Shown here one piece after another: positions 44,105 to 64,000 of a stretch of DNA of 64,000 nt (positions are counted from its first letter, which is position 1; every line of letters starts with the position of its first letter). The notes beneath the pieces are model-generated. The model made no database searches. It saw only the letters and a list, made by a program, of their open reading frames with translations, and was not told the DNA's origin. The translations under genes were made by a program, and so were the position numbers. Location: contig OX485805.1 in assembly GCA_950295325.1 (NCBI GenBank), forward strand, positions 22,433,501-22,497,500, read 5' to 3'. The stretch is from Polytrichum commune. Lineage: Eukaryota; Streptophyta; Polytrichopsida; Polytrichales; Polytrichaceae.

Positions 44105-44609
44105 CTGGCGAAACAACCACATCACCCGCCACATCATGAAGGTGACCGGTGGTTTAGATTTAGGGTGCGTGGCTAAACTTGGACCATAGATCTTCTTTTC
44201 AGATCAATGGTTGGGGTCTTCAAGCTCATCTCCTTGTTTTTTTGCTGAAGCTCCAACGTTAGGGTTGTTTGTTTCTCCTACATGCGGCTAAGTGTTGCTA
44301 GTGTCCGCACACAACATTTTTTGGAGCTTCAGCGGGGGTGTGCGCAGATACATGTTTGAGGGTCTCCCTCTTTCTACTGCATTCCGACTGTCTGTAGGGT
44401 TGTGTGTGCATACGGTTTAGGGTCTGTTTCAGAGTTTGATTGGGGTTTCATTAGGGTTTGAGGTACGCAGGGTTTTAGTTTAGAGTTTAGGTGTTTTCAG
44501 GAGGTGCAAGTGGCCGTGTGGTTGTGCTTGCCAACGTTGGATTTTTTTTGTCTACATTTGTTTTTGTTTGTTGTTTTCTTAACATATCATACTGTTCTAG
44601 GGTTTTGGG

Positions 44610-47600
44610 ATGGGTTCAAATTACAAGGTGAAGTTGTATTCTGTGGCTAATGAAAACTCACGACCAGAATTGGTTAGTCCTTTTGTGTGTCAGACAAGTG
44701 ATACATACCATGATCTTCGACAGAGGTTGGAGAGTTTAGGATGTCTAGACTGGGCGTTTGAGTTTTGGGATTTTGACGACCAATGTCGAATTCGCCAAAA
44801 ATTTGAGGTTATGAACCCCGTTACTGAACGCGTGTACGTGATTCCAAAGGAGGACGACAATGGTGGTGGTGCCTTTAAGCGACGGCGACTTGACGTGGTA
44901 GAAGAGAATGCCAGCAATGATGTAGATCAGCAACCATCTGGAGAAATTTCAGATTGGAACATGGATTTCAGATGCGAGGCTGAACCAATGCCCGAAGACG
45001 CCACTGCAGTAGAACTAGAAGATGTGGTTGAAGTACCAAATTACCTAATGTCGACCCTCTTATCCGATGAGGTCATGGAAAAGTACAATGGGGCAGTGTT
45101 GAAGTTGAAGAAGGAACTGGCAAACATGGACTTCGCCGATCACTTGTGGAACTTGAAGACATACGATCTCAATGGTGTTGGGGTTGTGAAAATTCACTGT
45201 GGAGAATGCAACAAAGAGTTTGGTGGGGCAATAGGAGATCATTCCAAATCAATCGTTGCAAATTTGTTTACAAACTTCAAGAAATCTCATCTTCACTCGA
45301 CCTTGCACATTAAACAATGGTGTTTGAGGAAGAAAATTCAATACAATGATCATCCCAAGGAGGGGAAGAAGGGAAAACCGGTGATTTATACCGCTGCAGA
45401 CCATAAGAAATTGGTGGAAGAGAGCCTCAGCATTTTGAAGGCTGTGAATGATGAAGTTTCTGAGCTGGATCCGCCGTTTGTAGTGGTTGGGGATGTGGGA
45501 GTAACTGAACTCAAATCATTTTGGTACAAGGTGCGGTGTAAGATTGATGGGGAGTTATTACTACTGTGCCCTCCAAAAAAAAACCTAAGGGTGAATTTGG
45601 AGAATCATTTACATGGATTCACTCACACCAAATGCTTGGAGGCAAAATGTAGTGTGAACAAAACATCATCCCCTTCAGCTACTCTCAGTGGCAAAAGAGG
45701 GAGACCCTCAACACGATCTAGGGCGACTGTTGGCAATCAACCTGACCTCCATGGCTGGTTCAAGACAGGATCTTCGCAGTCATCAGGATCAATAAACAAT
45801 GACCAAGCAGGTAAGTCTGATTCTATCTTGTCTTTGCTTTGCTGGGGGTATTGGAAGAGAACAACTCAATATGGGGGTAAATACTATAAGGTTGACGATA
45901 TGTTGGGGGATCCTAAGCCAGGATCTTGTTGGACAGCTGAACCAACAACTTCAGGCCAATTTAGCTACGGTAATGTGGATTTCAATGTCACTGGATGTTT
46001 CAGACATGTGTTATGTAACCGGCTATCGAAAACTGGTGAGCCTTTTTGTGATTTCACATGCTCTTATTGTTCAAGTATTATAAATGAAACTGATTTCAGA
46101 TTGAGAGTGCTTAGAGAAGGGCGGGCATTCGTGAAACGAGGATTGCGGGATACTAGATTGGGCTGCCGGATAGATTATTTGTCCCCGCAAGAGTTAGGGG
46201 GACATAGTCGGCTATTAGCTAGGCAGCTTAGAGAAGAGAGGGCGCTGCATTGGCAGATGAAGTCAAAGGTTGCTCAGCTGAAAATGTCTCAACGTGGCTT
46301 GAAACTTAGTGTTGTAGAAAATTTTAATCGAAAAGATGTACTTTCGTTCTGTAACAATATTTTGGCTGCCCACAGAACCAATGCCTTTGGTGGAAAACCA
46401 GCGTTGTGGGACTTCCTTAGGGACATTGCCACAAACTTGAATCGGGTGAGGCAGGGTCACAAATTTTCCCAAAATTCCAAGTCTTTCGCACAAGCCATGA
46501 AGATCTACGGTGGCAGACGTATGTGTGACCTTTTTGCACTTAATTTTGCAGGTCCCTCATATTCTAGTATTAAACGTGAGAATAAAAAGGGGGTTCACTT
46601 CATTGCAGGCGAACATTTTTCTATTTTTGCATCTATTGCTAATATTTACAGGGAGGCGAAAGAAGCGCACGGAATCATTGGACTTGTTCCTGTGATCTTG
46701 GCTGAAGACGAAACTAAGGTAAAGACGAGAATTGCGTGGGAAGCAAAAACGGACAGGTTGGTAGGATTTTGTGGGCCAAAAGAAGGTCATTGCTGCGTGT
46801 CTTCGTTCAAGCCAGTGGTGGGGGATGGTCCTGCAGGTTATGATTCCATCGTAGATGCTTTTCGTTTCAACAGGAAGGGAAGTTTTGCTCGTGTTATAAT
46901 GGTGAATCCCTTGCACACGTTACTGCCTAGACTTGTGCTAGTTGTATCGTGTACTTGTAATTGCTTTGACTCGGGTTGGGTTAAGAGACAATGGAATTGT
47001 ATCGATAGCTTGTGGGAAGAGTGTTGTGCAACAACAGTTGGACCCATCATTGGACATGCATCTGACGGTGATTCTAGGAGACGGCAACTGATGTTGCAAG
47101 ACTACTCCAGCAAGGTAGGGACGAGGTATGCAATTCCATGGGAGGGTTGGGGCCTAACTGTTGAGTGGTTAGGGGAGAACAAGGTAAGAGGCTTGCACGA
47201 CCAAGATTTTATTCACAATGCAAAAAAACTGATCAACCCGTTGGATAGTGCGGTTAAAAATTTACAATTGGGGGCTGATGTATGTTTTCTAGATCACTTG
47301 GGTCAAGTTTATCATAAATTCACTATAGATCAACATGGACTTAGGAAAGAGGACATCCAACGAACTGATCGTCAAAACTGGGCTAGTGCTCAAAGAATAT
47401 GTGCTGCCAAGGCTAGAAATTGCCTTCAGTTGTTGAGGACCAATAGAGATGCCCATCAAGAAAGAACTCTTGGCACGGAAATGTATTTGCAAATATGTGC
47501 AGACTACGTTGACATCTTCTTGTCTCTCTCATTAACACTTAGAGAACGGGTTGTGCTTGCCGGGAAAGTTTCTTTTTTCTTCCGCTTATGGAAACTTTGG

Positions 47601-49082
47601 TTTAAACACGGAGATCATTCTGTCGGTGGTAACACCAAGACCTTGACGGTTCAGGAGTGCGCTGTATCTAACCAATGTTTTTTAGACGTGCAACTCTCTT
47701 GTCACTTTGTGGTGTTATTAATCAAATACTTCAAAGATGTTTTTTCTCATCTGCCCGTTCCTTTCCATTTAACCGGTTCTGACTCTTGTGAGATTTTTTT
47801 TAGTAAGGTTGGGGGGATGCAGGGAATGGAAAGAGCCTATGATTTTCACGAGCTAGTCGGGTGCGCTAATACCGTGAACCAATTGGCAGCCATTGAGTAT
47901 GGGCATAACGGGTTACAGTTTGATAGAGCGCACAACAAACAATGCAATGTCTGGAGTGATCTTCACCCGCTTCAGCCCGGGGAAGAAGAAGCGGATCTTT
48001 CAGACTATACTGCCCTAGGATCAGATGAGGATTTTGTGACCGCATTGAAAGAGGGATTAAAGGCGGCACAAAGCATGTTGAATAGTCTCAACATGGCCCC
48101 ATCTACTTATGCACGAAATAAAACTTGGTTTCAACAGCCTTGGTTGATGGAGGTTACTGATCCAAACCATTGGTCTTATGTTGCACCCTTGAAGCCTACC
48201 CCGGGAGAAGATGGTGATGTTGAGGTCCTAAGGGAGAGTATGATGGCAGCAGAAGTTGCAGACCCTGAATCATGTGAAGAAACGTATCAGGGTGGGCTCG
48301 TCTTGGAAGACGAAATGTTTGAGGATGGCCTGGATCCGGTGGAGGTTGCCGAGAACGAATGTAGAGATGTCATTTCGGAAATGCTCGATTGTGTGGAGGA
48401 ATACCCTGAAGAGGTGGCAACAAAAGATTCTCGAGGTGGCACTATCTTGCCTATCGTAGAGTACATGGGAAGAACAATCTTCAAGTCTACACTGGTTTCT
48501 GAATTGAATGGAAACCCGTTCCTTTCCAAGGACCGTTTGACCCGAATTAAAAATTCTGTCTACTTCAACAATGCCGAAGAGTACATGTCAGCTGCTAATT
48601 CTAGTAGTACATGTCTACTGGGGTTGGGCAGTGATTGTGGAGTTCTATTCTTGCAATCAACAAATTTGAATGTGTCCTCAACGGTAAAGGCTGTGCAAAA
48701 GAGGAGAAGATGTGGTGGTCAACGGCTTGGAAACCCAAGTGTTGTGACCGGGGGTGCAGATGTGGGGTCTTGGTGGTTAGGCCGGGTCCAAAAAATACGA
48801 AGAAAGGTGGGGAGCAAGTGGGGCCTATGTCGTTATCCAATTGACTTATTGGATCGGACGACAACAGGTAAGAAGGTAAGTTCTGGCCCAACTGTAGAAA
48901 TTTTATTAAATTGGTTCAAAAGAGCACCGGGAAGGAACAAATTTAAGTATGATGCTACCGACACACAATGGATAGATGTTGACAGTGTCATTTCTACCAT
49001 TGTTTTGTCATTTAATAATAGAACTAATATTTATAGTTTAGAAGACAATGACAAAAATGTACTAGATGATTTTGTAGCATGA
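44610..49082 (+). CDS. P-element/THAP9-like DDE transposase, intronless
   Basis: An uninterrupted 1,490-codon frame. Visible parts: a mixed N-terminal domain (1-80), possibly ubiquitin-like; a zinc-finger-like cluster C197, C200, H227, H229, H233; a second C310, C320, H335, H339; an AT-hook GKRGRPS (361-367); a Cys cluster 463-487; a charged helical stretch 534-566. The core then reads LAED700ETK, SD819GDSRRR and SDSCE1061IFF. This order (D, then D in an 'SDG..RR' turn, a long insertion, then E before FF) resembles the RNase H-like core of P-element/THAP9 transposases, where 'DE', 'DG..xNR' and 'ENFF' words hold the triad. An acidic segment (1197-1262) and a Trp-containing basic domain (1387-1465, WWLGRV...WIDVDS) follow. 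No THAP domain is seen. A chromatin-associated domesticated protein is the alternative. Family assignment is my inference from motifs; a homology search is needed. Confidence 0.7.
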   Translation: MGSNYKVKLYSVANENSRPELVSPFVCQTSDTYHDLRQRLESLGCLDWAFEFWDFDDQCRIRQKFEVMNPVTERVYVIPKEDDNGGGAFKRRRLDVVEENASNDVDQQPSGEISDWNMDFRCEAEPMPEDATAVELEDVVEVPNYLMSTLLSDEVMEKYNGAVLKLKKELANMDFADHLWNLKTYDLNGVGVVKIHCGECNKEFGGAIGDHSKSIVANLFTNFKKSHLHSTLHIKQWCLRKKIQYNDHPKEGKKGKPVIYTAADHKKLVEESLSILKAVNDEVSELDPPFVVVGDVGVTELKSFWYKVRCKIDGELLLLCPPKKNLRVNLENHLHGFTHTKCLEAKCSVNKTSSPSATLSGKRGRPSTRSRATVGNQPDLHGWFKTGSSQSSGSINNDQAGKSDSILSLLCWGYWKRTTQYGGKYYKVDDMLGDPKPGSCWTAEPTTSGQFSYGNVDFNVTGCFRHVLCNRLSKTGEPFCDFTCSYCSSIINETDFRLRVLREGRAFVKRGLRDTRLGCRIDYLSPQELGGHSRLLARQLREERALHWQMKSKVAQLKMSQRGLKLSVVENFNRKDVLSFCNNILAAHRTNAFGGKPALWDFLRDIATNLNRVRQGHKFSQNSKSFAQAMKIYGGRRMCDLFALNFAGPSYSSIKRENKKGVHFIAGEHFSIFASIANIYREAKEAHGIIGLVPVILAEDETKVKTRIAWEAKTDRLVGFCGPKEGHCCVSSFKPVVGDGPAGYDSIVDAFRFNRKGSFARVIMVNPLHTLLPRLVLVVSCTCNCFDSGWVKRQWNCIDSLWEECCATTVGPIIGHASDGDSRRRQLMLQDYSSKVGTRYAIPWEGWGLTVEWLGENKVRGLHDQDFIHNAKKLINPLDSAVKNLQLGADVCFLDHLGQVYHKFTIDQHGLRKEDIQRTDRQNWASAQRICAAKARNCLQLLRTNRDAHQERTLGTEMYLQICADYVDIFLSLSLTLRERVVLAGKVSFFFRLWKLWFKHGDHSVGGNTKTLTVQECAVSNQCFLDVQLSCHFVVLLIKYFKDVFSHLPVPFHLTGSDSCEIFFSKVGGMQGMERAYDFHELVGCANTVNQLAAIEYGHNGLQFDRAHNKQCNVWSDLHPLQPGEEEADLSDYTALGSDEDFVTALKEGLKAAQSMLNSLNMAPSTYARNKTWFQQPWLMEVTDPNHWSYVAPLKPTPGEDGDVEVLRESMMAAEVADPESCEETYQGGLVLEDEMFEDGLDPVEVAENECRDVISEMLDCVEEYPEEVATKDSRGGTILPIVEYMGRTIFKSTLVSELNGNPFLSKDRLTRIKNSVYFNNAEEYMSAANSSSTCLLGLGSDCGVLFLQSTNLNVSSTVKAVQKRRRCGGQRLGNPSVVTGGADVGSWWLGRVQKIRRKVGSKWGLCRYPIDLLDRTTTGKKVSSGPTVEILLNWFKRAPGRNKFKYDATDTQWIDVDSVISTIVLSFNNRTNIYSLEDNDKNVLDDFVA

Positions 49083-50169: not shown

Positions 50170-51705
50170 ATCAAACCGGTTTGCACAAGTCAAATCCAAA
50201 GGACAACATGTTAGGGCGAGAGTGCAGTAGAGGAATAAAGGCAATACAATGACGGCTAAATTTTAAATGTGGTCAAGGAAATGTCACAAGCACCTCTCCT
50301 TTAAGAGCTTGAGAGGGAAGATGGGGTTAAAGTCTTGGACTCTGAAGGGTTGAGTAAAGTTTGTTCTAACTTTTACAATAAACTCTACACGCAATCTAGG
50401 TATACCGAGGAGGTAAAAGAAAATAGGAGGCATGCATTGAATGGGTTGGGCAACATGGTTATGCAAGAACCGAACTCAATACTAGGAGAAGAGTTGATTG
50501 AAAAAAGAACTACATGCCGTAGCTATGTCAAAGGCAAAAAGAAGCCATCAGGGCCAGATGGTGTACTTATTAAGTTTTTAAACCAAATTTTGGGGCATTA
50601 TGGGCACAAACTTTTCCTAGTGATTCAAGAGGCCTTACATGTAGGTAAACTCCCCTTATAATGACCAAAGGGCTAATCACCTTGCTATTCAAACAAGTAG
50701 AAACTACCAAGCTTGCGAATTAGAGAGCAATTATTGTATTGAAAGTTACTTACAAAATTTACACAAAGGCCTTACAACTTTGGCCACAACTCGTTCTTAG
50801 GGAGGTTATTAGTTTGGATCAAACTACGATTTTTCCTTTTTGATGCATTTCTAGACAATGCTCTTCTTACCCACGAGACTTTGGCATGGGCAAAGCATAG
50901 TAGGCATGAGGTAATTTTCATGAAGTTAGACTTTACAAAGGCATACAACACAATTGCGTGGGAATTCATGTTTCAAGCCATGAACATCATTGGGGTTCAC
51001 CCTAGTTTGTTAGTATGACTTAACTACTTTTCCAAGATGTATGCGCGGTGGTTAAGTAGTCCTTACCTTTTTCTAATTGTGGGGGAGGTACTTAACCACA
51101 TTTACAACAAACAATAAAAAAAAATCAAGAGTTCTAGGGAATTACTATGCTAGGACTAGCTCAACAACATTCCATCACCCAATATGCAGGTGATGCTTTG
51201 TTCACAATTGAAGGAGAATAGAATGCAATAAGAAATGTAGTTAGATTATTACATAGGTTTAGCTTAGCCATTGGCCTTAACATTCATTGAATTAAGTGTA
51301 TAGCTTACTAGCAAAGCTCCATGCAAGCCAAACCAACATGGCTAGACAACTTCCAATAGCAGTGGGCACATGAAGGTGTATTGTCTAAAGTACAACGGAC
51401 AACATTTAGGTTATCCCTTGAGGTTTAGGATGTTGATAATTCTTTTATTAACAAAATAAGGGAGACAATTATGTTTTGGGGCTCAAGGCTTCTATCACTA
51501 GTAGTCAAAAGACTTATTGTGAACTAGGTCCTTGCATGCACCTTATAATACTTTTTAACGGTTTGGGCAAGGTCTTGGAAAGCCACTAGGAAAATCAAAG
51601 GGCTACTAAGGGGCTATGTATGGGGTGGACAACTTGGGCATGTGCAAGCTAGGATTGCATGGAATGATTGTTGTTCAAAACTCAAGAATGGAGGCCTTTA
51701 GAGGT
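50170..51705 (+). pseudogene. L1-like LINE reverse transcriptase, decayed
   Basis: Interrupted frames give LCNFYNKLYT-like sequence, KKKPSGPDG (50551), a QTT.FPFDAFLDNALLTHETL block, FMKLDFTKAY (50919-50946, catalytic Asp kept), YAGDALFTIEGE (51183), LLHRFSLAIGLNI and WARSWKATRKIKG...WNDCC...NGGL near the end. These are reverse transcriptase blocks in canonical order. The YADD box is YAGD (51183-51194), so a catalytic Asp is lost, and stops and frameshifts are frequent. It is the 3' half of the LINE begun at 42753. Confidence 0.85.
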
Positions 51706-52090: not shown

Positions 52091-52537
52091 AACACATCCA
52101 CTTTTTAGCACATGGTCACTTCTCTTAGTCCATGTACAATTTACACCTAACACTATATTCGGTATTTGGAGACTTTTTGTTGATTATGAGACTATATAAG
52201 GATGCACCTTTCAAAATTGGACCAGTAATGACGACTAAAAATCCCATATGTATAATGGTATGCTACTATTATTATACATAAAGGCATGGAAGTGAACAAA
52301 AATGTGAGGCATACATGAAAATAGTTGCGTATGAAATGACAACTCGTTATGAATGGAAGGGAAGATGCGAAGAATGAATGGAAGTTGAATGAATTAATTG
52401 GGATTGAAATACAATTATAATGGAAATACCATCAATGTCTTGAGTAACTTGGAATAGCATAGGAAGTAAGCACTTAAATATGTTCTACACCTAAGCCCAT
52501 TTAGGGAGTCCGTCCCACTCGTACGCTTCTAGTCACA
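52091..52537. other. Gene-free spacer
   Basis: AT-rich spacer between the LINE-associated repeat and the GC-rich locus; nothing recognised. Confidence 0.5.
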
Positions 52538-52547
52538 CTAGTCCGAC

Positions 52548-53480
52548 CCACTATTTTTTTTTGGCGGCCTCCATGGCTCTAAAAATCTCAGGCCCACGAC
52601 TGTATCCTTGTGTGTTGCCTGGACAGGAATATGTGTTGTTCTTGCATGTTTCAGGACGCGCTCCCGAATTGTACGAGGTGGTATTATAAGTAGAATGCGA
52701 GGGTGTTTGCGAAAGGGAACGTCTTGCGCTTCTCCGGAGGGCCAGACAACGATCGGACTCGGAAGATGCGGCCTTGAGGGCGTGCCTATCCAAGGAGGAC
52801 GTGGAGGAGGGCCGGGCACCAAGCGAGCAGGTAGCCACCTGCGAAACAACGTCATAGGAAGATAAGAATAGGAATGGAGTGGGGAAAATAATGAGGGCGG
52901 TTTGGGATGGGCGCTCGTAAAGAGAACGGCACGCAAACGGAAGACAAGGGAAGCAAAAGCGCGAAAGGGGTTTACGGTTGAGGAGGGCACCTTGGCTTTG
53001 GGGACGTCCATGCGGGGAACGGTGGGAACGAGGGGGGCGTCGACGGGAGCATCCGGAGCCGATGGAAATATTGCACTGTTGGATGGCGGGGGGGAGTCGA
53101 GGCGTGGAGGGCCCACGATCACGGAGGACGTTGCGGGGGGAGGAACGGAGTCGGCGGGGGAGGTGTGGCAACGGGGGCCTTCCATGCGGAGACGCCGGCT
53201 TGGCCCGCGATGAGCGACGCCGTCGTCCTTAGAGGGCGAGAGGTGCCCCAAACGAACGAGCGTCCGTTTCTCCTTGGAGAGGGGGGAGGGCGACAAGTGC
53301 GGGGGGCGGGCTGTTGACGACACCATCGTCGATGCCGACGTCGCGGGAGTAATCCACTGCGGAGGCCGCGTCCACCGCCGAGAACTGGTAGAGGGATGGC
53401 ATTTGGAAGCCCGTGACGTCGCGGGAAGGGGAGGCAGGGGGCGAGAGGGGACGGGAAGGGACGTCGACCACAGGGGCGTC
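52548..53480 (-). pseudogene. GC-rich Pro/Ser/Arg-rich coding-like region
   Basis: A sharp rise in GC marks this block. Minus-strand frames are open but the most protein-like reading shifts: VDVPSRPLSPP...GIDDGVVNS (53471-53290), then KDDGVAHRGPSRRL...VNPFRAFASLV (53250-52950), then DRHALKAASSESDRCLALRRSARRS (52790-52700). A splice acceptor-like 'CTTGCCCATAG' precedes it near 53500. It lies downstream of the phosphatase-like exon on the same strand. No domain is recognised; it is either frame-disrupted or a multi-exon disordered protein. Confidence 0.3.
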
Positions 53481-53607
53481 GCATATGGGGGCAGACTATG
53501 GGCAAGAACAAGAACAACAACAATCACAACAACAAAAAACATCCAAAAACGAAGCAAGCATTAGTAAATGTGAACCACATGATACAAAGCAAAGACATGG
53601 AGGCATT

Positions 53608-54393
53608 TCAAATCAATTTATTGAGTTTGGCGAGCCTCATGATGCTCTTGAATACATTATCGCGGGGGCTTAGTGCCGCATTGCCGATGGGGTTGGACCT
53701 AACAAAAAATGGGATGCTACCGGCGTGGAGCACGAGCCTTCTAAGGTAGGGGGCTAGCCTATCGACCAAAAATGTGTCTTGCCTATCGCCGGTCCAAGTG
53801 TCCGGGAAGATGACGTTGCCCGGGGGGTTCAAGACGCTCTTGGTGGGGCTGTCGTCGATGAGGACGGTGTTCTCTGGAGTCAGCCACCACCCGTGCGGCG
53901 TCCCTTGCAGACGGGGGACGCCTCGCCAGAGTCTCGAGCGGAGGACCTTGAGGAACTGTTGTCCTCCGCCCCGACCGCCAAACTTGGGCACCGGTTGATC
54001 TTTCTCGTCGAGCAGCTCGTCGCAGTCCTCTTGGCCGAGGACGAGGCAAGGGCTCGGGAGATCGCGGAACAAGAAGTGGACGATGGGCTCGGTGTTCTCC
54101 ATGACCATGGAGCTCCACACAATGACGTGAGCGAACTCGACCACCTCGCGAAGGAAGTCACGCAAGCCGGGACGGGCGCGGACAGCCTTGCGGTTAATGA
54201 GGGTGTCGAGCTTGCCGTCGTAGTCCCTTTCGTTGGGGTGACGGAAGGGACGCGTGGGGACCCTTGGGATGTGTTGGGTGTGACACAACACCCCGTTGAG
54301 GTCAAAAACGATGAAAGGTTTGATCCGGGTGGGAGGTCCACTGGTCGAGGGGTTGCGACCAATCTCCGGGGGGTCATGTGATGAACAACTCGA
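53608..54393 (-). CDS. FCP1/NIF-type HAD phosphatase-like exon
   Basis: This exon encodes 261 residues to a stop at 53608. It has the FCP1-homology HAD layout: motif I IVFDLNGVLCHT, then RPGLRDFL, motif II-like VIVWSSM, motif III Lys in PVPKFGG, and motif IV IDDSP. The usual catalytic DxDxT reads DxNxV, so the general-acid Asp is Asn; plant FCP1-related proteins with 'DLNG/DVNG' are known, so this need not mean decay. The frame is open upstream of any Met to an in-frame TAG at 54394-54396, so it needs a 5' exon; an acceptor ...ACTAG fits phase 0 and would join it to the exon ending at 54994. A separate gene with a distant first exon is the alternative. Confidence 0.75.
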   Translation of the reverse strand, partial: SSCSSHDPPEIGRNPSTSGPPTRIKPFIVFDLNGVLCHTQHIPRVPTRPFRHPNERDYDGKLDTLINRKAVRARPGLRDFLREVVEFAHVIVWSSMVMENTEPIVHFLFRDLPSPCLVLGQEDCDELLDEKDQPVPKFGGRGGGQQFLKVLRSRLWRGVPRLQGTPHGWWLTPENTVLIDDSPTKSVLNPPGNVIFPDTWTGDRQDTFLVDRLAPYLRRLVLHAGSIPFFVRSNPIGNAALSPRDNVFKSIMRLAKLNKLI

Positions 54394-54507
54394 CTAGTTT
54401 AATTCTATGATCCAATAATGAAATTTTGCGTAGAAAATGAAGACGGTGCATTATGGGGAAAGACGAGGAAGTGAGGAGAGTGCAAGAAAAATGTGCTCAA
54501 GGGCACA

Positions 54508-54663
54508 CTTGCGAACGAGCGTTCGTGAATGAAGGCTGCGGGGGCGGTGCGCATCATTTACGAGCGCTCGTTCGTGAGCGCGGCTACACGTACATTTACG
54601 AGCGGTCGTTCGCAAATGAGGTGGACAGTGGGTCGCATCCTTTCACGAACGAGCGTTCGCGAA
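54508..54663. repeat. Four palindrome variants in intron 3
   Basis: Diverged copies of the 22-bp palindrome lie at 54508-54529, 54557-54578, 54595-54616 and 54642-54663. They carry A-to-G type changes such as GAGCG and TTCACG not seen in the 59-kb cluster. They lie between the phosphatase-like exon and the coiled-coil exon. Confidence 0.85.
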
Positions 54664-54944
54664 TGAGGTGGGTATGCAAGAATGAACATAATCTCATCAA
54701 CATATACAATATACGAGAAGGGGTCGAGGGCAGAGAATTTGAAGCAACGCGATGCAGATAACATAGGCTCATATATTAATCCGTTGAATATTTACATTTC
54801 TCACGTGATAGTCTATCACATTTTCCTAAGGCAAAATGATGCCGTGTCCTACAAAACTGTTCGGCCCTAAGGGGGACCGCTGAAGAGGGCTCTCGCAAGG
54901 CCACTGGATGTCCATGAAGAGAAAAACATCGCGATGTTAGAGAG

Positions 54945-54966
54945 GTTACGAACGCGCGTTCGTAAA
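54945..54966. repeat. 22-bp palindrome, intron 3
   Basis: GTTACGAACG, centre CG, CGTTCGTAAA; 28 bp into the intron from the donor at 54993. Confidence 0.95.
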
Positions 54967-54993
54967 AAAATGGTATTCTCAGAGGAGAGTTAC

Positions 54994-56424
54994 CTCGTCA
55001 TCGGGGGGAGGGGCAGCGGCGCTGGACCGAGCAGCAGGTCCCTCTTCAACGATTAACGAACGCGCGTTCGTAACCTCCACAGCTGCAGCTGCCTCTGTCT
55101 CCATGGCCTCTGCCTCATGCTCCGGTTGAGACGCATGTGTCGCCTGGATGCGCAGCGCGTCTTCTTCCTCGGCGCCCAGGTCGAGCGCGTCCATCCTGAC
55201 ATCCTCCATCCACGCCGCATGGGTTTCTTCCACGTCCATCCCATGCACTCCTGGTGCGTCATTGGGGTTCCCCTGCGTGTCCTCCACAATGACCATGTCA
55301 GTGTGTCGTGCAGAGTCATCGCCATGTCTGTCTACTACCCTGGGGACGACGGTGAAAGACGACGCATCGGTGTATGAGGGCAGTCCTACCCTTGAATGGG
55401 GAGGGGTGAGGACTGGAAGACCTGAAGATTCACGAACGCGCGTTCGTAAATCCTCGTCCTCATGGATGGCCACCGCCACAGCATCGTGGGAGGTGGTCGA
55501 GGGAACCTCTGGGGGCGGAGGAGTGCCAACAGGCGTAGGGTGGGGCGCCTGCTGGCGGGAAGGCCCTCCGGTGAACATGCCTGGTGGAGGGGATTGGGAG
55601 GGGTATCCTCCAGGGAAGGGGTAGGCCGGCTGGGGGGGCGCCGTAAAGCTCTGCATACGCTGGAGCATGGCGAAGATGGCGTCCGTCTTCTCGTTGGACT
55701 GCCTCAACTCCTCCTGAATTTCGAACATTTTCTTGGCATTCTCCTCTGCCGCCTTCGCCATGTCCTCCTTCTTCTGCTCGAGCTTGGCGTTAAGCTCGGC
55801 GACGGACAACGCCTCCTCTTTGACCCTCTTGTTTTTGTCAAAGTCTACCCCCAGCTCGACCATGATCTCCATGTCGCCCTCGTCCTCATCGGAGACCTCG
55901 ATGATTGCCCCCGGAGGCAGCTCCACGTAGGGGGTCTTCTTCATCCTCCGCCTCGTGTTGCGGTAGTGGTCCAACGTCGGTCGGGACCGTTGGTCCAGAA
56001 GGTCGAGGTTCTCCATCTTGGGAACAACGATCGGCCTGGGCGACACGGATGTCGAGCATCCCCCGGGAGTGTCGAATGCCTCCGCTCTAGACGTTCTCGC
56101 GGGGAGGACATCTTGGGTTGTCCCCGCCGACGACCCCGTGTATCCACCCGGAGTCCCCTGCACGTCAGATGGGTTTCCCGACGGCCCCAAAATTCGCAGA
56201 GGAGTGACGTCCAAGGATCGGAGGATCGCCTCGACGTTGTAGGAGGGCGCGGGCTCGTCGTCGTCCGTCTCCATGGCGGGCATGCCTTCGTCGACGGGCA
56301 TGTTGATGTCCGTCCTTGGGAGGGACATGTCCTCCAGGTCCATCGTGGACGCCTTCGCCCTGTGCACGTGGAAGTCCTCCTCGTCCACGGCGTCAACGAA
56401 GCTATTGACGACCAGCCCCAACAT
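54994..56424 (-). CDS. Acidic, coiled-coil exon of the ParB-like gene
   Basis: This exon encodes 477 residues between acceptor CTCAG|ATG and donor GAG|GTAACT, both phase 0. The start MLGLVVNSFVDAVDEEDF continues the methyltransferase-like tail of the preceding exon. Then come an acidic disordered part, a basic patch (RNTRRRMKKTPY), a predicted coiled coil (VAELNAKLEQKKEDMAKAAE...MLQRMQS) and Pro/Gly-rich sequence. Two 22-bp palindromes lie inside the coding sequence (55429-55450 and 55053-55074) and are translated as LRTRVRE and TNARSL. Without splicing the frame ends five codons after the donor (TGA at 54979-54981), so this could also be a terminal exon. Confidence 0.65.
55053..55074. repeat. 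22-bp palindrome inside coding exon (a)
   Basis: TTAACGAACG, centre CG, CGTTCGTAAC. On the coding minus strand it is read in the frame where the consensus would give TAA; here the codon is TTA (Leu). Confidence 0.95.
55429..55450. repeat. 22-bp palindrome inside coding exon (b)
   Basis: TTCACGAACG, centre CG, CGTTCGTAAA. On the coding strand it is read in another frame, as LRTRVRE, and causes no stop. Confidence 0.95.
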
Positions 56425-56450
56425 CTGAGATCCAAGCAAATACGTTAGAA

Positions 56451-56551
56451 TATACGAACGTGCGTTCGTAAACATCAACGACGAGAAACAATTCAAGTTC
56501 TAATGAAACCAAAACAAGTTGAGGTGAACTTTACGAACGAGCGTTCGTAAA
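56451..56551. repeat. Two palindromes in intron 2
   Basis: Copies at 56451-56472 and 56530-56551 (the second perfect, centre AG) lie within the 146-bp intron 56570-56425. Confidence 0.95.
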
Positions 56552-56570
56552 TATTAGTTGGAGAGCTTAC

Positions 56571-57895
56571 CATTGCAGCGTACATGAATTTGCTGCCTCC
56601 ACAGACGTTGTATACAGTCTCTCCGCTTATTGCCACGCTTTGCAACACGGAGACGTAGAACTCCAACCTGAGTTCCAGCACCGGGAAGATAGTGTACAAG
56701 GTCTCCTGCAACAGATCCTTGGGAGGGGGATGGGGGATGTTGTAGATCTTCTTGAACGTAGTATTCGCCCTGACAGGGGCTCGCCCATTCCGCAGCGCGT
56801 TGTACGTCAAGAAGACGAGGCTGACCGCCCCCACCTGTTTGTTCCCCCTGGCCTCGTTGATGGCCACGATCCCTTCCGTCTTGGCGGGCACGTAAGTGCT
56901 GTGGAAGATACTGTACTCGAATTTGATCGTCTTCTCGTACAGGTCGACTACAGCAGAGAGCTTCTCCTGCTCCACTATCCACAGCCAAACGTGAGGCTCC
57001 CTCATGTCCGGAGACTTGTGCTCCTTGAACTTGGTCATGAAGGGGTTGTAGAACGGCATGTCCTTCCCCCCCTGCCTCGACGCACCCGGGATCCCCCTGA
57101 AATCGATCAGGGCAAATGGGCACCCCCGTCGATCCTCCCTCACCTCGGCCCTGTTGAGGGTCCCGTCCCACCTGGAAAATGTGACCCTTTCCACTCCGGT
57201 TGTCACCACACAAAATCGGGCCACTCCTTCGAATGTGGCCATCCTCTTCCGCGCCAAAAACCTTTTGTATTGCTCCACCTCCTGGGGATCTGTCTCGGTC
57301 TTCTTTGTCCTCTTGTTCCCCTTCTGCTTCAAAATGGAGGCGTGCTCCTTGACAAGGCAACGCATTGAGGAGCCGAAGATGTTGTAGTCGACCTTGAACA
57401 TCTTCCAACTGGCCCAATTCACGTCCCCGTCGGCCAGGAAGAGGACGTACTCGGGTATTAGGGCGTTCAATTCCCTCATTGCCGCCGTCTTCATCTTGCG
57501 GTGGTCGCACCATTCCTTTATGGAATACGTGCCGGGCTTGTGCCTTGGCCTCCTCAAAAATATCTTGGGGTAGGGTATGGTTCTACCCACTGTGTTCCCA
57601 AGAAGATGCACCGCGCACCTCTGCAACTCGGACTCCGTCAACCCTTGAAGGGACCTAAAGAACTCCCTCAGCAGTGGAGGGGCCTCCCCGGTCTTTTCCG
57701 CGCTATATTTTCCTCGGTGTCGGGGTTGACAAGATCTCCCGAGCTGTGTGCATCAAAAAACTGGGTCCACAAGTCCCAAGTGTCCCTGTTGCAGCAGATG
57801 AGGCGGAACTCACCCTTGAGCTCCAAGACAGACTTGGTTGTTGTGGACTTCATGTCGATGGACGAAAACTTGTCCACCATTGCGTCGCAGAATGC
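56571..57895 (-). CDS. Degenerate DNA-methyltransferase-like exon (frameshift)
   Basis: The exon runs from acceptor CTGCAG|GCA to donor ATG|GTAAGC. It is 1,325 nt, one short of a multiple of three. The frame breaks at an A4 run (plus-strand T4, 57708-57711), from DTEE.. to ..YSAEKTGEAPP; one missing base explains it. The long part (from 57641) holds CPFALIDFRGIPG, at the place of a methylase motif IV, and ends LRLEFYVSVLQSVAISGETVYNVCGGSKF, reminiscent of the 'GE.VlD.F.GSGT' motif that closes beta-class N6/N4 adenine or cytosine methylases. The catalytic DPPY is not preserved, so methylation activity is unlikely. The frameshift may be real or a homopolymer sequencing error. Confidence 0.6.
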
Positions 57896-57928
57896 CTGCA
57901 GTAAAAGTGAAATGTCAGTTATGCACAA

Positions 57929-58006
57929 AATACGAACACACATTCGTGAATTTGGAAGTCAATAAAATAGAAATGCACCAGGCCTTTACAAACGAACGTT
58001 CGTAAA
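57929..58006. repeat. Two palindromes in intron 1
   Basis: A degenerate copy is at 57929-57950 and a near-perfect one at 57985-58006. Read on the transcript, the second starts five bases after the 5' splice site (GTGAG then TTTACGAACG). Confidence 0.9.
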
Positions 58007-58011
58007 CTCAC

Positions 58012-59307
58012 CTTCCATTGTGGAGACGGGGTCTTGGCGTTCTCCCGCTCCTTTGGGGGACACCCGTGAGCAACCCAGACTTCTCTCGCCGCCACGATGT
58101 TGGTTGCCCAGGATGCCTCGAAGGCTTTTATCTTGTTGCCGGAGTTGAGGAAGGTGGAAATCTTCCGCAGCTTGTCCCAGTCGTCCGACCACACCAGGAA
58201 CGCCTTCCAGTAGCGCAAATCTGCCTTCAACTCGTGCTGGAAGTTGTCGTCCTTGAGGATTATCTGGGACGCCTCCAAGCTGTGTTGGCCGTCTATGATC
58301 CAGAACTCTCCATTCTGGATCCGTGGCCAGTCCTTCTCCGTCGGACGGGATGTCAGCCCCTTCGGCATGACGCAAACGGTCTGCCTATCCCACTTTACGT
58401 TGTTCATGAGATTGTTGATCTGCCACTTCACACCACCGCTCTCGCGAGACCGAACCACCCACTTGTTGGGGGACTTCTCGCACTTGAAGCAGTCCACATT
58501 GAATGTAAAGTGGCGTCCCATGGGCCAGCAATCCTTCGAGTAGTTGTTGAAGTCTCGAAGGATTCTGGTGGCCTTCACAATGTCTGGGTTCTCGCCCTTT
58601 TTCAAGGGGGTAGGCATCAATACCAGCGAGCTCACCTCCGCGGTATCTGTTACTACGGATTTCTCCATCTCTTCCCTTGTCCTCTTCGATGGCGTGGAGT
58701 TTCTGTTGGGGCCCTCCGTCGCCCTACTCGCGGAAGGCACAGGCTTGGGTGCACTTCTTGATCCTCCTGCCCCCGATGTGGATGGTTTCCTGGGGCTCTT
58801 CTTTTTCTTGTTGGCCTCGGTGACCACACTGTTGTACTTCGAGATGTTCAAGGCGAGGGCTGTCAATTTCCTTGCCGTCCAGTATGGGCTCAAGGCATAC
58901 TTCGAGAAGAGTGCGTCCAGGTCGAAGTGTTTGGCATCTTCCACTACGTTATTGGTGGCGTATGTGTAGGAGAAGGTATGCTTTTGGAAATGCAACAAAA
59001 GGTTGATATGATCCTTCTTGTTCTTCATGTCAAGAATTACATACTCCCCCTGAGCCTCTATGGACTCTATCTCCCACGTCTTCATTTGAACCCACTGTTC
59101 AGGCTGGTCCACTTTGGTCTCCAACTCGTAGGTGAAGCGCATGCAAAAGAGGCCGTCCCCGATCTTCTCTGGCAGTGCCGTCCACTCCCCCATGAAGTCC
59201 TCCTTGGGGACATAGTTGTCGTTGCCGTTGTCGTCTAACACCGACTCTGGGAGGCAATCGACCTTCACCGCGAACATCTCAATGGCGCTTCTGCTTGATC
59301 TTGCCAT
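58012..59307 (-). CDS. ParB/DGQHR-like domain exon (first coding exon)
   Basis: This exon encodes 432 residues from ATG (59307, directly after an acceptor-like TTGCAG) to donor AAG|GTGAGT. Residues 1-165 are unrecognised. A basic Ser/Pro linker (166-215) follows. Residues 240-415 contain VKWDRQTVCVMPKG and then EFWIIDGQHSLEASQII, with DGQHS at 339-343. This matches the 'DGQHR' or ParB N-terminal-type motif (iiDGqHRleA) of ParB/DndB-like proteins, with Arg replaced by Ser. In phages and bacteria ParB-like domains are often fused to DNA methylases, which matches the next exon. Expected role is DNA or nucleotide binding; not demonstrated. Longer upstream open frame to 59376 is palindrome-derived intron sequence and is not used. 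Confidence 0.65.
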
Positions 59308-59335
59308 CTGCAACAGAATATAAACAATTAGTGAC

Positions 59336-59631
59336 TTTACGAACGAACGTTCGTAAATGACATGCATATCCCGCATACTACGCAGTCTTAATGCGTCTTT
59401 GCAATTGATGTAATTATATTTACGAACGTTCGTTCGTAAATGAGGGGTTGCGAGATAATATGAATTTTTAGTATTGAATTTACGAACGAGCGTTCGTAAA
59501 AGATATGAAGATCAAAGAGACTACTCGTCATGAATGTATTTGCAATATATTTGGTTATTTTTATGAACGATCGTTCGTAAAAGATATAGGTTTTCTAGAT
59601 TTGGTTTTGTTTACGAATGTGCGTTCGTAAG
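59336..59631. repeat. Five palindromes upstream of the ParB-like exon
   Basis: Copies lie at 59336-59357, 59419-59440, 59479-59500, 59560-59581 and 59610-59631 with centres AA, TT, AG, AT and TG. Half-sites (TTCGTAA) occur near 59677 and 59709. Confidence 0.95.
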
Positions 59632-59790
59632 TATGTCCATTTGGTCTATCTTTTCGGACATTTGGTTGATTTAGTTTTCGTAAGTACATGTGAGTTGTTT
59701 TATTGGTGTTCGTAAATTTATATTTGTTCTTTAGATATTCGGATAGGTTCATATTAAAGTTAAGGTTCCATCTGAGTGATATTTGGCGTA

Positions 59791-60022
59791 TATTTACGAA
59801 CGTGCGTTCGTAAATATAGACCATTCCAAAGAACGTGGAGTGCGTATTTACGAACGTGCGTTCGTAAATATAGAGCATTCCAAAGAACGTGGAGTGCGTA
59901 TTTACGAACGCACGTTCGTAAATGGAGGTTCAGTATGCAGTGTATGTCCATTTACGAACGAGCGTTCGTAAATGGAGGTTGGGTATGCAGTGTATGTCCA
60001 TTTACGAACGAGCGTTCGTAAA
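59791..60022. repeat. Tandem palindrome array
   Basis: Two 54-bp units (59791-59844 and 59845-59898) differ at one or two bases. Two further units (59899-59950 and 59951-60000) share 'ATGGAGGTT.(G)GTATGCAGTGTATGTCCA', and a fifth palindrome follows at 60001-60022. Open frames here (YERxFVN, LRTCVRKY) are by-products of the palindrome. Confidence 0.95.
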
Positions 60023-60439
60023 TGTTAAGGTTTTGGAAGCCCCTGTCCATACATATACGATTTCGTATATATACAAATACGTATATAACACTCTTATTAG
60101 CAACTCTGCTTGCAGCCGTGCCTGCAAATCTTGGTTAGAATGATGCAAATCTTGAATCAGAACGCAATTGAGAATGAAACATGAAGAAGAAAGTGATAAT
60201 TTACATTGCATGTAACAAAATTGAATTCAAGAAGCAACATTTTCAGAATGTGAGAGGAGTTGGAAATGACAACTAATTACATTGAAATGCTGCACACTTC
60301 AAACCCTGCTTCTTCTCTTTCTGAAAATCCCAGAAATTCTCACAACTGCACACTCAATTGCCTTTCAAATGCACACTCAGTTAACTCTCTAATGCAGACC
60401 TCAAGCCTTCACAGCTTATATACAAACCCTAGCATACTC

Positions 60440-60760
60440 CCATGTACACAAAACTCACAAGCTTGTATCTCTCAAGCTTCTGAACTCTCAAGCTTCCCTA
60501 AACTCTCAAGCTTCACCTCTGAAGCTTCCCTAAACTCTGAAGCTTCAACTCTGAAACTTCCTTAAACTCTCAAGCTTCTAAAAATCACCCTCAAGCTCTC
60601 AATCTGAAACTCTGAAGCTTTGCTACTCAAGCTCTCAAGCTTTTGAAACTCACAAACTCTCACACTTAAAGCTTTCACAAACTCACAAGCTTTCACACTC
60701 TCAAGCTTGTAGAACTCTCAAGCTTTCACACTTAAGCTTCTCAATCTGAAATCTCTCAAA
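60440..60760. repeat. AAGCTT-rich short-period repeat
   Basis: 'CTCTCAAGCTT' and 'CTCTGAAGCTT' recur irregularly every 12-25 bp, around twenty times. A Ser-rich plus-strand frame at 60260-60565 overlaps part of it but is not recognised. Confidence 0.85.
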
Positions 60761-60955
60761 ACTTGCAACAAAACTAATTTAAAACTTCAAGACTAAAAAA
60801 AGCAAGAGCTTCGCTCTCTAAGCGCTCCGCTCCTCCTCTCCTCGAAATGACAAATGAGAAGAAGAGGAAGGGGTGCGGGGAGGTAGGTGCGCCGCTAGGG
60901 TTTCCCAGCACCTGCCACGTGGCACAACTCCACTGGCTAGGGCTGGGAGGGAGAT

Positions 60956-61032
60956 AGGATGGGATGGTATGGGAGGTGATGGGAAGGCATGGGATGGGAT
61001 GGGATGGGATGCGATGGGAGATGGGAGATGGT
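60956..61032. repeat. GGGAT minisatellite
   Basis: GGGAT and GGGAGAT words repeat in tandem; seen directly. Confidence 0.9.
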
Positions 61033-62640
61033 TGTATATTGGAACCCTTCATGTTATACTCATGCTTTGACATATTTATATGTAATGACGCTTTTAGGGC
61101 ATTAACTTGAAAAGCTTAGTTCAAATACATAAATTTTACTCATTTTATTTCCTTAGTACCTCTACATTTGGATTCCTTGTAAACATATTTTAGAAAAGTA
61201 TGCTCAGTTAATTCGCACTGAACAATGCATGTCATTTACTAGGTTGTCAATGTAGAATCCACCCCCAAAGATATGTATATGGTGTTTTAAAATATAGTTT
61301 ATGTAAGAGCGAGATATCTTCCAATTTGTTTGATGGTTCCTCAAATAAATACTACATGCAAAAAGGACTTCATAATATGAGATTGCGGAGAGTTGCTATA
61401 CGATACGATGTCAATTCAAGTTCCAAAAGGTGTTAGCTTGAAGTAATGCATTTCAGCCGTGTGGTCGATTATTTTGCTAGCATCAACTACGAGCTTGCGA
61501 TAAATAAAGTTAGTGCAATACGGGTTTTTGAGGAGTCAATATTGTTTGTGTGTGTAATGTACACTAGTAACAATCTAAACCCTAAACCCAAATACCACAT
61601 ACACAACTTTCACAAACCCTAAACCCCTAAACCCTACCCCCAAACCCTAACCGTAAACCCTAACCGCAAACCCTAAACCCTACATCCCTGCATCTTTTTA
61701 TCTTACCAACCTTTCTTATATGTGGCCATGTTGTTGTCTGAGGGCAGGTCAAATTGGTCTACCAATGTTGGTTGGATGGAGAATGCTTAATTCCGTTCAT
61801 AACAACTATAATAATTGATAATGATGCCAATTGTCATTTTCACATTCAAAATTAATAGATTTGAGATAAAACTTTGGTTTAGGTGATAAGTGAAATTTCA
61901 AATATTCCCTTTTTCACCTTAATAGTTATGAGTGAAATTTCATCACACAATCCACGATCTTATTATAATAACACGCATGTCTTAAGATTTCAATTTATAT
62001 CAACACTTTAAGCTATGATGATGCACATCCTTCTCATAGGATGCAAAACATATATTAATTGTAAGTACATACTATTGTATGCACCATTCCAACTTAATGG
62101 TGCATTTCCCCAAACCCTAAAAGTCTATTTCCAATAGGACCTCAACTCATTTAATCAGATGTCAACTTAAACTAACAATCGAACAATGCATTCAACTATA
62201 AATATCACCAATGATCTAATAAACGTTTAACCAATGTGTATCCGTACCCTTACAACAAGTGGAGGAAAATTCAATTTCCAATAGGACGTCAAACACATAA
62301 TAATTGTAACTATGATTCAACGTTACGGTAGCTATGGTTTCAAGTCTCAATGATCATTACGCTATCATACTATGCAGCATTACAAATTGATTAATCCTTC
62401 CTACTCATGCCATTTTAATTCCTTATTTTTACACCTAGATACCATTTGAAAGAAGACCTAACTTACATATATTATTAGGTATAATTAGTTCATAATGTCC
62501 TCAATCTACCCTAGTACAAGCCATTATGGATTAACCCAATTTTTTAGTTGTATTCATGCACTTGGTGACCATATTACGGTCATTTTTTGATGTGAAACAT
62601 ATGATACCTATAATTTTAGGGGCGTCCGCAACATGTTCTT
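61033..62640. other. Gene-free AT-rich stretch with telomere-like tract
   Basis: No gene is recognised. It includes the degenerate telomeric tract listed at 61574-61683. Confidence 0.5.
61574..61683 (+). repeat. Interstitial plant-type telomeric tract
   Basis: Degenerate CCCTAAA heptamers (about ten, with AACCGTA and AACCGCA variants) are interrupted by other sequence. The form is the plant telomere heptamer; being short and degenerate it is interstitial, not a chromosome end. Confidence 0.8.
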
Positions 62641-62663
62641 AGCCACTCTTACCTCATTGTGTG

Positions 62664-62671
62664 TGTGTGTA

Positions 62672-62710
<39 letters not shown>
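62664..62710. repeat. (TG)n(TA)n microsatellite
   Basis: A TG run passes into a long TA run; a second TA-rich palindromic tract lies at 62830-62860. Confidence 0.95.
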
Positions 62711-62712
<2 letters not shown>

Positions 62713-62976
62713 CTTCAACATTCATAACTTTATTAGGCATCAATTGTCAATTAACTTGGACTTCATACCTTAGTCGCAAATCATTAAATATTCAATGTTA
62801 ACCATCTCCATATTTAGACATTATGTGTATACATATATATATATGTATATACATATATTTCGATGAGACCTTGGTCACAACTAAGGTGTGCAACAGATTT
62901 ATATATTTTCAATATGTTGGCGTGCATGCAAGGCATGTTCCATACATGACAGTGCTATTTATATAATTCCGCATGG

Positions 62977-63234
62977 ATGGAATGGGAGATTGTTAGGTCA
63001 AAGAAGGCGGTGGGAATCCGCTTTTTAAAGAGCATCCAAGGGATTTTGAACCAGCGGGGTGAAGTACTTAAAGCTCTTCCCCCCACAACAAAGCTCTTTT
63101 CAGCGGCACATGCAAGTGTGCGCTCTTCAGACCACACCGAACGCGCTCAAGCCATTTCGGTACAGGTCACCACCCAGGCACAGTACATCACCCAGGTAGA
63201 GTACAGGCTGTACCAACCGCATATACCGCCGTAA
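62977..63234 (+). CDS. Unrecognised 85-codon open frame
   Basis: The frame MEWEIVRSKKAVGIRFLKSIQ...YQPHIPP is the only coding-like sequence between 60.6 and 64 kb. It has ordinary composition but no motif. It could be an exon or retroelement fragment. Confidence 0.2.
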   Translation: MEWEIVRSKKAVGIRFLKSIQGILNQRGEVLKALPPTTKLFSAAHASVRSSDHTERAQAISVQVTTQAQYITQVEYRLYQPHIPP

Positions 63235-63244
63235 ATACCGGAAC

Positions 63245-63266
63245 TTTACGAACGCACGTTTGTAAA
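63245..63266. repeat. 22-bp palindrome
   Basis: One substitution (CGTTTGTAAA), centre CA. Confidence 0.95.
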
Positions 63267-63318
63267 GACGAGGAGCTTCATGTTTAGACAAATGATTCGG
63301 ACCTGAACATGGCAAGGA

Positions 63319-63694
63319 TTTACGAACGTGCGTTCGTAAATCTCACATGAGAGCATGTTCTGGATTGAGCTACTCATAGATATTCACATGCACGTAATCC
63401 ATGGCAGTTATTTACGAACGTGTGTTCGTAAATATGCCTTCGAGGACCATACAGACATATTTGACCCGTATGTATTGGTACCTGATGGTCAATAATTTAC
63501 GAACATGCGTTCGTAAATCCCACATGAGAGCATGTTTTGGATTAACCTACTCCTGGATAGTCACATGCACATAATCCATGGCAATTATTTACGAACGTGC
63601 GTTCGTAAATATGCCTTCCAAGATCATACATATATATTTGACCCGTATCTATTGGTACCTGATGGTCGGTAATTTACGAACGTGCGTTCGTAAA
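63319..63694. repeat. Tandem 177-bp repeat with palindromes
   Basis: Two 177-bp units (63319-63495 and 63496-63672) and the start of a third. Each has a palindrome at its start and another about 92 bp in (63319, 63411, 63496, 63588, 63673), separated by conserved text such as 'CACATGAGAGCATGTT' and 'ATTGGTACCTGATGGTC'. Confidence 0.95.
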
Positions 63695-63779
63695 TACATC
63701 TCATTGTTTTCTACGCATCCAGCAACACATCTTCATTCATACACATCGGTATGGCAGTGATATACGAACACATAATACC

Positions 63780-63965
63780 AAGAAAAATATGCTCATCGCA
63801 AACTTACGAACGAGCGATCATTGCTGAGGGAGGCGATGGTCATCATTAACGGACGCTCGTCCGTGAAGGATGTGAATACGGGGCGCACCCATTTACGAAC
63901 GTCCGTTCGTGAATGGGTAGGTACGCAAAAGTCAACAAAATCAAATTCACAATATGAAGGGGCTC
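63780..63965 (+). repeat. Second copy of the intron-3 palindrome block
   Basis: It aligns with 54486-54735 in the same orientation ('AGAAAAATRTGCTCA', 'ACGAACGAGCG', 'CATCATT.ACG', 'GAATG.GT.GGTAYGCAA', 'GAAGGGG') with one palindrome unit fewer. Palindrome variants lie at 63803-63824, 63846-63867 and 63892-63913. Confidence 0.75.
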
Positions 63966-64000
63966 AGTGGACAGAATATTGTTGTAGTTGATTCATGCAT

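Follow-up and report, generated by a model that had tools for sequence, protein, structure and literature searches.

The Spm/En transposon encodes a protein, TnpA, that binds many short, subterminal repeats of the element itself. In Arabidopsis, VANC21 binds clustered motifs in the non-coding DNA of VANDAL21 (PMC5735166), and VANC proteins counteract silencing (PMC10398659); in bacteria, DndB, a protein with the DGQHR motif, controls the dnd operon and binds to TACG-N10-CGTA palindromes, with 4-bp half-sites 10 bp apart, in the promoter of its own gene (PMC4507180). Here we compare with these systems a four-part gene on the minus strand of a 64,000-nucleotide stretch of the genome of the moss Polytrichum commune (the window; C3:22433501-22497500 of a 407.8-Mb assembly in 64 contigs, on which all genome-wide counts were made). 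It is the accessory gene of a high-copy plant DNA transposon with terminal inverted repeats (TIRs), here called family A, and we think it rather likely that its product binds palindromes of the same element, and regulates or de-silences that element. SBP-box domains, regarded as specific to green plants, have 16 matches in this assembly. Throughout, C1-C12 are contigs, A-D are families, and C4b, C1c, C3a and L-numbers are individual copies or loci.

The transposon was delimited by comparison of its copies. Its TIRs read AACACTATATTCG at one end, with the inverse at the other; a genome search with the 29-bp pattern of these ends gave 480 occurrences, and the reversed control gave none. Among 15 facing end pairs, hand-picked from the first 100 of these 480 places, 12 show an exact 4-bp target-site duplication (TSD), one a 1-bp match and two none; a 4-bp TSD was also found in two of three further copies (AGTG and AAAG), copy C4b being without one. 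Similarity between copies is lost sharply at the right end in all five copies, and at the left end in all three that have it in view, while copy C3a is shortened on its left side. The full copy, C4b, is 16,063 bp long (C4:4663324-4679386). The right part of the element fills positions 52149..64000 of the window, on the minus strand, with the right TIR end at 52149 (AACACTATATTCGGTATTTGGAGACTTTT read on the plus strand); the left end lies beyond 64000. In the left half of C4b, on the opposite strand, there is an open frame of 540 amino acids (aa) with a DUF7869 match (E 4e-40) and at least 80 genomic matches, and this is taken as the transposase, DUF7869 being presumably a DDE transposase domain. 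The corresponding match for the window copy, interrupted by two stops, is found just outside the window, at C3:22501131-22502747. Exon 1 of the accessory gene has at least 97 matches in the genome, with protein identities of 86-100%; nearly all of them span the complete exon, many contain no stop, and several tie on score. Exon 4 has at least 146 matches. The element is present in about a hundred copies or more, and its activity is apparently recent. A virus-derived origin, considered because of the higher GC content, was rejected, since the TIRs, the TSDs and the copy structure point to a transposon and no viral relative was found; no relatives of the element were confirmed in collections of viral contigs and prokaryote genome contigs, whose scope does not extend to plants.

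A 4-bp TSD is a trait of the Sola superfamily, to which the family-A element can be likened on this feature; its transposase matches DUF7869 only. We know of no accessory gene or palindromes for Sola. Sola1 is listed for Physcomitrella in PMC9033089. The literature surveyed, a scope that excludes most subscription papers and Repbase, describes no comparable element and leaves DUF7869 undiscussed.

The original prediction placed at this locus a single plant-type gene of four minus-strand exons, and all four are found: exon 1 (59307-58012; 1,296 nt, 432 aa), with DGQHS at residues 339-343 and residues 231-432 almost invariant; exon 2 (57895-56571), with degenerate methylase-like motifs; exon 3 (56424-54994; 1,431 nt), coiled-coil-like and of low complexity by reading; and the NIF/FCP1-like open reading frame (ORF) of exon 4 (54393-53608). 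In most respects this layout holds; what the window contains, however, is a damaged copy of a multicopy transposon gene and not an ordinary plant gene. Exon 2 has 1,325 nt here, and the additional nucleotide for which the prediction had allowed reflects a genuine 1-bp deletion in the window copy, C4b and C1c being uninterrupted at 1,326 nt, the length (442 aa) in intact copies; copy C3a has a stop and a deletion of its own in exon 2. Introns 1 (57896..58011) and 2 (56425..56570) do have the predicted GT-AG ends. Those of intron 1 are kept in all ten aligned copies, and intron 2 has the donor GTAAG in ten of ten and an AG acceptor in each of the seven copies with the acceptor region in view, the sequence between its splice sites having diverged among copies.

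The third predicted junction is plausible rather than certain; its acceptor is mutated in the window copy. The exon 3 donor, GAG/GTAA (the slash marks the junction), is present in all five family-A rows (C4b, the window copy, L050, L057 and L051) and in one family-C copy, and is followed by an in-frame stop 9-12 nt downstream. A phase-0 acceptor, CACAG/GA, precedes exon 4 in the four other A copies, where the window copy reads CACATGA (conserved position about 54375), and a phase-0 acceptor precedes the NIF ORF in family C as well. No in-frame ATG stands ahead of the catalytic motif of this ORF in the window copy or in family C, and because of this, together with the matching phases, splicing of exon 3 to exon 4 is favoured over a reading in which the NIF exon forms a third gene of its own. 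The four-exon model is the likely one; the alternative is that translation stops soon after exon 3 and gives a shorter product.

The family-A element carries about 30 copies of a 22-bp palindrome, TTTACGAACG-NN-CGTTCGTAAA, of which the original prediction made no mention. Its exact form occurs 2,909 times in the genome, and the reversed control never. At 15 or more of 20 matching positions the full copy has 30 sites, against 0.1 expected under a first-order model, and none lies in the 52 kb of window sequence outside the element. The sites form clusters ahead of three coding parts, namely the transposase gene, the accessory gene and the NIF exon, and they are found also in introns 1 and 2 and in exon 3; the outer 3.8 kb on the left and 2.4 kb on the right are site-free. 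The window copy has 29 sites, all from 54508 onward: ten (at least 15/20) upstream of the accessory gene (59336..60022); eight upstream of the transposase gene (63245..63913, placed via the full copy); five between exons 3 and 4 (54508..54966); two in the coding sequence of exon 3 (55053-55074 and 55429-55450); and four, two to each intron, in introns 1 and 2 (within 56451..58006, starting at 56451, 56530, 57929 and 57985). Between the two upstream clusters, at 61573-61689, the transposon also contains CCCTAAA telomere-like repeats.

The intronic sites are conserved where their surroundings are not. All ten copies compared have the two sites of intron 1 and the first of intron 2; nine have the second of intron 2, the stretch examined for the remaining copy (L002) stopping before it. 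In C4b the two sites of each intron lie at opposite ends, close to the donor and to the acceptor respectively. Between four lineages the intronic arms are identical at 0.95-0.97, against 0.25-0.55 for seven of the eight 20-bp flanks, the eighth (0.88) covering an exon end and splice donor. In the imperfect sites of C4b, 25 arm pairs are changed on one side and two on both sides, one of the latter still being complementary; the prevalence of one-sided changes indicates that the sequence, rather than the pairing, is kept. By reading, each site has four CpGs in A, and two in B and D. Dense tandem arrays of the family-A palindrome occur at L018 (C1:639500-647500), which has no accessory gene and is probably a non-autonomous derivative keeping the sites; a divergent accessory gene was considered there and rejected, tblastn with exons 1-4 having found only a 46-aa transposase-like remnant.

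Related elements provide a comparison of protein with site. Family B (contig C1; L063, L070 and L012) has the same layout as A, with an accessory protein 36-38% identical to that of A in exons 1 and 2, and transposase parts 56-65% identical. The first 13 bp of its right end are as in A and its left end has one change; the one B copy read at both ends has the TSD AAAT. In the B copy L063 a stop replaces the Q of DGQHS. Family C (L067), 81% identical to B and 34-37% to A, has an open DGQHS and the palindrome of B. This palindrome, GTTTGGGTCG-NN-CGACCCAAAC, is found in B before the transposase, the accessory gene and the NIF exon, and in introns 1 and 2; the exact B/C form occurs 9,231 times in the genome, and its reversed control not once. 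When sites of at least 16/20 are counted for motifs A, B and D in that order, element A has 30/0/0, A2 27/0/0, B 0/33/0, C 0/22/0 and D 0/0/7. The A and B/C palindromes have the same geometry and placement, and each is confined to its own element group at this cut-off.

Family D is a multicopy gene whose product includes a methylase domain (PF01555, E 1.1e-7) with the motif DIPY or DIPD, and VGTGAS; it is represented at L065 (C1:9661259-9662956), C4:44111581-44113278 and C5:16865163-16866860. Its palindrome, GTTTGTGCGC-NN-GCGCACAAAC, has six exact sites in the genome, at five loci, each 5-6 kb upstream of a D gene copy; other D gene copies are without an exact D palindrome. The D gene was considered as a homologue of the accessory gene of A-C, a view that was not retained (hhalign of A/B/C against D, P 0.57). 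A kinase-like ORF (L068), recognised by eye, lies between D palindrome and D gene, and the part of it that was scanned had no Pfam match. High-copy ORFs, mostly of about 150 aa, at L069 (C2:10878000-10881000) are 34-37% identical to the motif I part of L065, and this further repeat family supplied 42 of the 85 matches in the search that listed the D gene copies.

Exons 1 and 2 are under strong purifying selection, as judged by the ratio of nonsynonymous (dN) to synonymous (dS) divergence from C4b. For exon 1, 16 rows were found and C4b was compared with 11 of the 15 others, the near-identical C3a, L006 and L058, and L056, being omitted; L051 and L052 were saturated in dS, the near-identical C1c gave 0, and the eight remaining lineage comparisons gave dN/dS of 0.045-0.11 (dS 0.28-1.5). 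For exon 2, compared with ten of 14 others (C3a, L058, L054 and L056 omitted), nine lineage comparisons gave 0.07-0.15, C1c being excluded from this range (dN/dS 1.1 at a dS of 0.003). Exon 3, for which C4b was compared with five others, evolves faster, at about 0.26 between lineages and 0.24 for the window copy. In exon 4 (five copies), C4b gave 0.11-0.17 against L050 and L057, and 0.53, on few changes, against the window copy, with values of up to 0.27 between other pairs. Between C4b and L050 the dS of exon 4 is 0.18, far below the 1.1 of exon 1, so that the right part of the element shares a more recent history; the low family-A value suggests exchange of right ends between lineages. Across families the NIF exon is mostly found in frames of 257, 261, 281 and 283 aa.

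Set beside VANC, the moss gene is likewise an accessory gene of a plant DNA transposon that carries clustered, family-specific short motifs, which for VANC are tandem repeats in non-coding DNA (PMC5735166, PMC10398659). The VANC21 motif is a 9-mer, YAGTATTAY, in a single orientation (PMC5735166), whereas the sites here are 22-bp palindromes and, unlike those of VANC, are present also in introns and exon 3. VANC has DUF1985/DUF287 and highly variable regions (PMC5735166, PMC10398659), whereas exons 1-2 here are strongly conserved and Pfam gave no DUF1985 or DUF287 match for exons 1-4 of A (E up to 1) or for exons 1-2 (E up to 10). With DndB (PMC4507180), the shared features are the DGQH motif and the site itself: perfect A sites all have the form TT-TACG-N10-CGTA-AA, and the 4-10-4 geometry recurs in the B/C and D sites. 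Against this likeness, the motif here is DGQHS, there is no hidden Markov model (HMM) match, the protein is a large eukaryotic transposon protein, and the half-sites of B and D differ. The many short repeats in the element for what is predicted to be its own protein are reminiscent of Spm/En TnpA, but there the sites are subterminal, while the ends of the A element are site-free.

Of the domains that the original prediction joined in this protein, the FCP1-like end is borne out, in a spliced eukaryotic gene, by PF03031 (E 3.6e-16, 59.7 bits, cut-off 21.8). The catalytic motif of NIF/FCP1 phosphatases is DxDx(T/V); it reads DLNGVL here, the first D being kept and the second replaced by N, and phosphatase activity is uncertain. 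The ParB/DGQHR claim stands at the level of the motif, DGQHS lying in the most invariant stretch of exon 1 (one DGQYS among seven rows), but homology was not established by HMM or profile. The DGQHR domain is marked by the DGQHR pentapeptide, a QR pair and FxxxN (PMC4619093). The motifs here resemble these, with differences: the pentapeptide has S for R, the upstream DRQT has RQ and not QR, and the downstream FxxxN is present in B and C but is LxxxN in A. The papers found on DGQHR are bacterial, judged by their titles.

The methylase homology proposed across the exon 2/3 join was not established, there being no HMM match, a profile score near that of the control, and no catalytic DPPY. Searches at E up to 10 of Pfam, NCBIfam and PADLOC (families A and C) and of PHROGs (A only) returned no ParB or methylase match, and PF01555 matched neither A nor C; the few weak matches that did appear involve unrelated families, with PADLOC CARF2 at the top (E 0.0014, one A copy). 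With hhalign, the comparison with a set of four ParB N-terminal parts gave P 0.088, aligned exactly at DGQHS, and that with a methylase set P 0.062, the exon 2/3 join being aligned at methylase motif I. The controls, which were few (transposase, NIF and reversed sequences), included transposase against methylases at P 0.075, and exon 2 against the ParB set gave P 0.027 at an unrelated place. A sequence search of the PDB returned nothing for exon 1 (E up to 5) or exon 4 (E up to 0.001). Beta-class N6/N4 methylases have the catalytic motif (D/N/S)PP(Y/F/W). In the position of DPPY, the five aligned A, B and C rows all have DFR-IPG, while motif I has degenerated to GGSK or GGTK; with DPPY missing, an active methylase is unlikely. 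Phage and bacterial ParB-methylase fusions (L061; phage OP947158) have the same order, ParB-like and then methylase-like, but differ in that no significant profile similarity and no DPPY are found here. L061 itself, a fusion by reading, belongs to a group of methylase genes without introns (L060-L062) that look bacterial or phage-like, on contigs C10 and C12, which are probably contaminants.

In the mechanism that we propose, the product of about 1,600 aa would bind the 22-bp palindromes as a dimer, through the exon-1 region with DGQHS; another element-encoded protein would be the alternative binder. With sites ahead of the transposase gene, of the accessory gene itself and of the NIF exon, and further ones within introns and exon 3, such binding would regulate the genes of the element, most likely by keeping CpG methylation and silencing away, as an analogue of VANC, and/or through autoregulation of the kind known for bacterial DndB. 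If the methylase-like part is indeed a methylase domain, it would probably be non-catalytic; the FCP1-like end may have as its target the RNA polymerase II tail, or chromatin where the protein is bound to the element. Family-specific sites call for a family-specific reader, which would most simply be encoded by the element, and this suggests that each element encodes a protein recognising its own DNA. Since the start of the TIR is common to A and B, the transposase presumably still reads the same ends, which makes the accessory protein the better candidate.

Several observations weigh against this proposal. We infer the binding of the accessory protein to the palindromes from sequence, and the anti-silencing step by analogy. 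The transposase and NIF exon differ between A and B too, so that covariation with the sites is not peculiar to the accessory protein. Only three palindrome types were seen, and as homology of D to A-C is not shown, the contrast of A with B/C is the sole test of the link between protein and site. If the cut-off is lowered to 15/20, the A copy has a single B-type match; B has four weak matches (15-16/20) close to its right end. The likeness to the DndB site was spotted post hoc, and the ParB/DGQHR and methylase similarities are not significant; AlphaFold2 runs on exons 1 and 2 with shallow alignments gave a mean predicted local distance difference test score of 34 and 33, and no usable model. 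With these points in view, we tentatively raise, at somewhat less than even odds, the wider idea of a new self-recognition system of plant DNA transposons, in which a fusion of DGQHR/ParB-derived, methylase-derived and FCP1-like parts would bind family-specific 22-bp palindromes in the promoters, introns and an exon of the element that encodes it, protein and site changing together as families diverge, and keep the element expressed.

The palindromes might instead be bound for transposition by the transposase or a host factor, while the accessory protein does something else. The transposase has diverged between A and B as well, and the weak matches near the right end of B favour this explanation; yet a transposase must act at the ends, which in the full A copy are free of sites over the outer 3.8 and 2.4 kb, and the A and B palindromes are wholly different while the TIR start is common to both. 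A host factor would leave the family-specific sites unexplained, and we consider this whole explanation unlikely. The fusion of ParB, methylase and FCP1 parts originally predicted, if taken as an enzyme that would methylate or cut DNA, possibly at the palindromes, appears less probable again: the replacement of DPPY by an invariant DFR-IPG, the degenerate motif I, the lack of an HMM match and profile scores no better than the control all tell against it, even though DGQHS and methylase motif I do match at motif level, in the order seen in ParB-methylases such as L061, and a PF01555 methylase is indeed present in another element family (L065).

A ParB-like motif together with many strongly conserved palindromes would also be expected if these were parS-like partition or replication sites of an extrachromosomal stage and the DGQHS domain acted as a clamp in the manner of ParB. 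Their concentration before genes and in introns does not fit, however, and no ParA-type ATPase match was found among the element ORFs scanned with Pfam, so that this is a highly improbable account. The slimmest chance is given to a role of the palindromes in RNA, either as hairpins or through pairing of the two copies within an intron, which would aid splicing; the position of the C4b sites at the two ends of introns 1 and 2, next to donor and acceptor, would suit such a role, but the same motif is clustered upstream of genes, and its arms are kept as sequence, with 25 one-sided changes against a single compensated one.

Elsewhere in the window, a 1,493-aa open frame at 44601-49079 (plus strand) had no Pfam match at E 0.01. 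A flavin-containing monooxygenase-like exon is found at 19349-20233 (plus strand; PF00743, E 5e-21), which we take, by recall, to be YUCCA-like. Just outside the transposon, at 50743-51018 (plus strand), lies a fragment with a weak match to reverse transcriptase (PF00078, E 0.0015) that falls short of the family cut-off.

That the gene rides on a transposon with palindromic sites of its own changes its meaning. To our knowledge, sequence-specific escape of transposons from silencing in plants is represented mainly by VANC of Arabidopsis. If the reading proposed here is true, an apparently unrelated architecture follows a VANC-like logic with a cleaner code, made up of 22-bp palindromes of identical geometry that are confined to their element group and stay near-unchanged in introns otherwise diverged almost to randomness; the specificity of protein for site in A as against B would be directly testable by swapping. 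For plant annotation it would serve as a warning that gene models of this kind are transposon genes.

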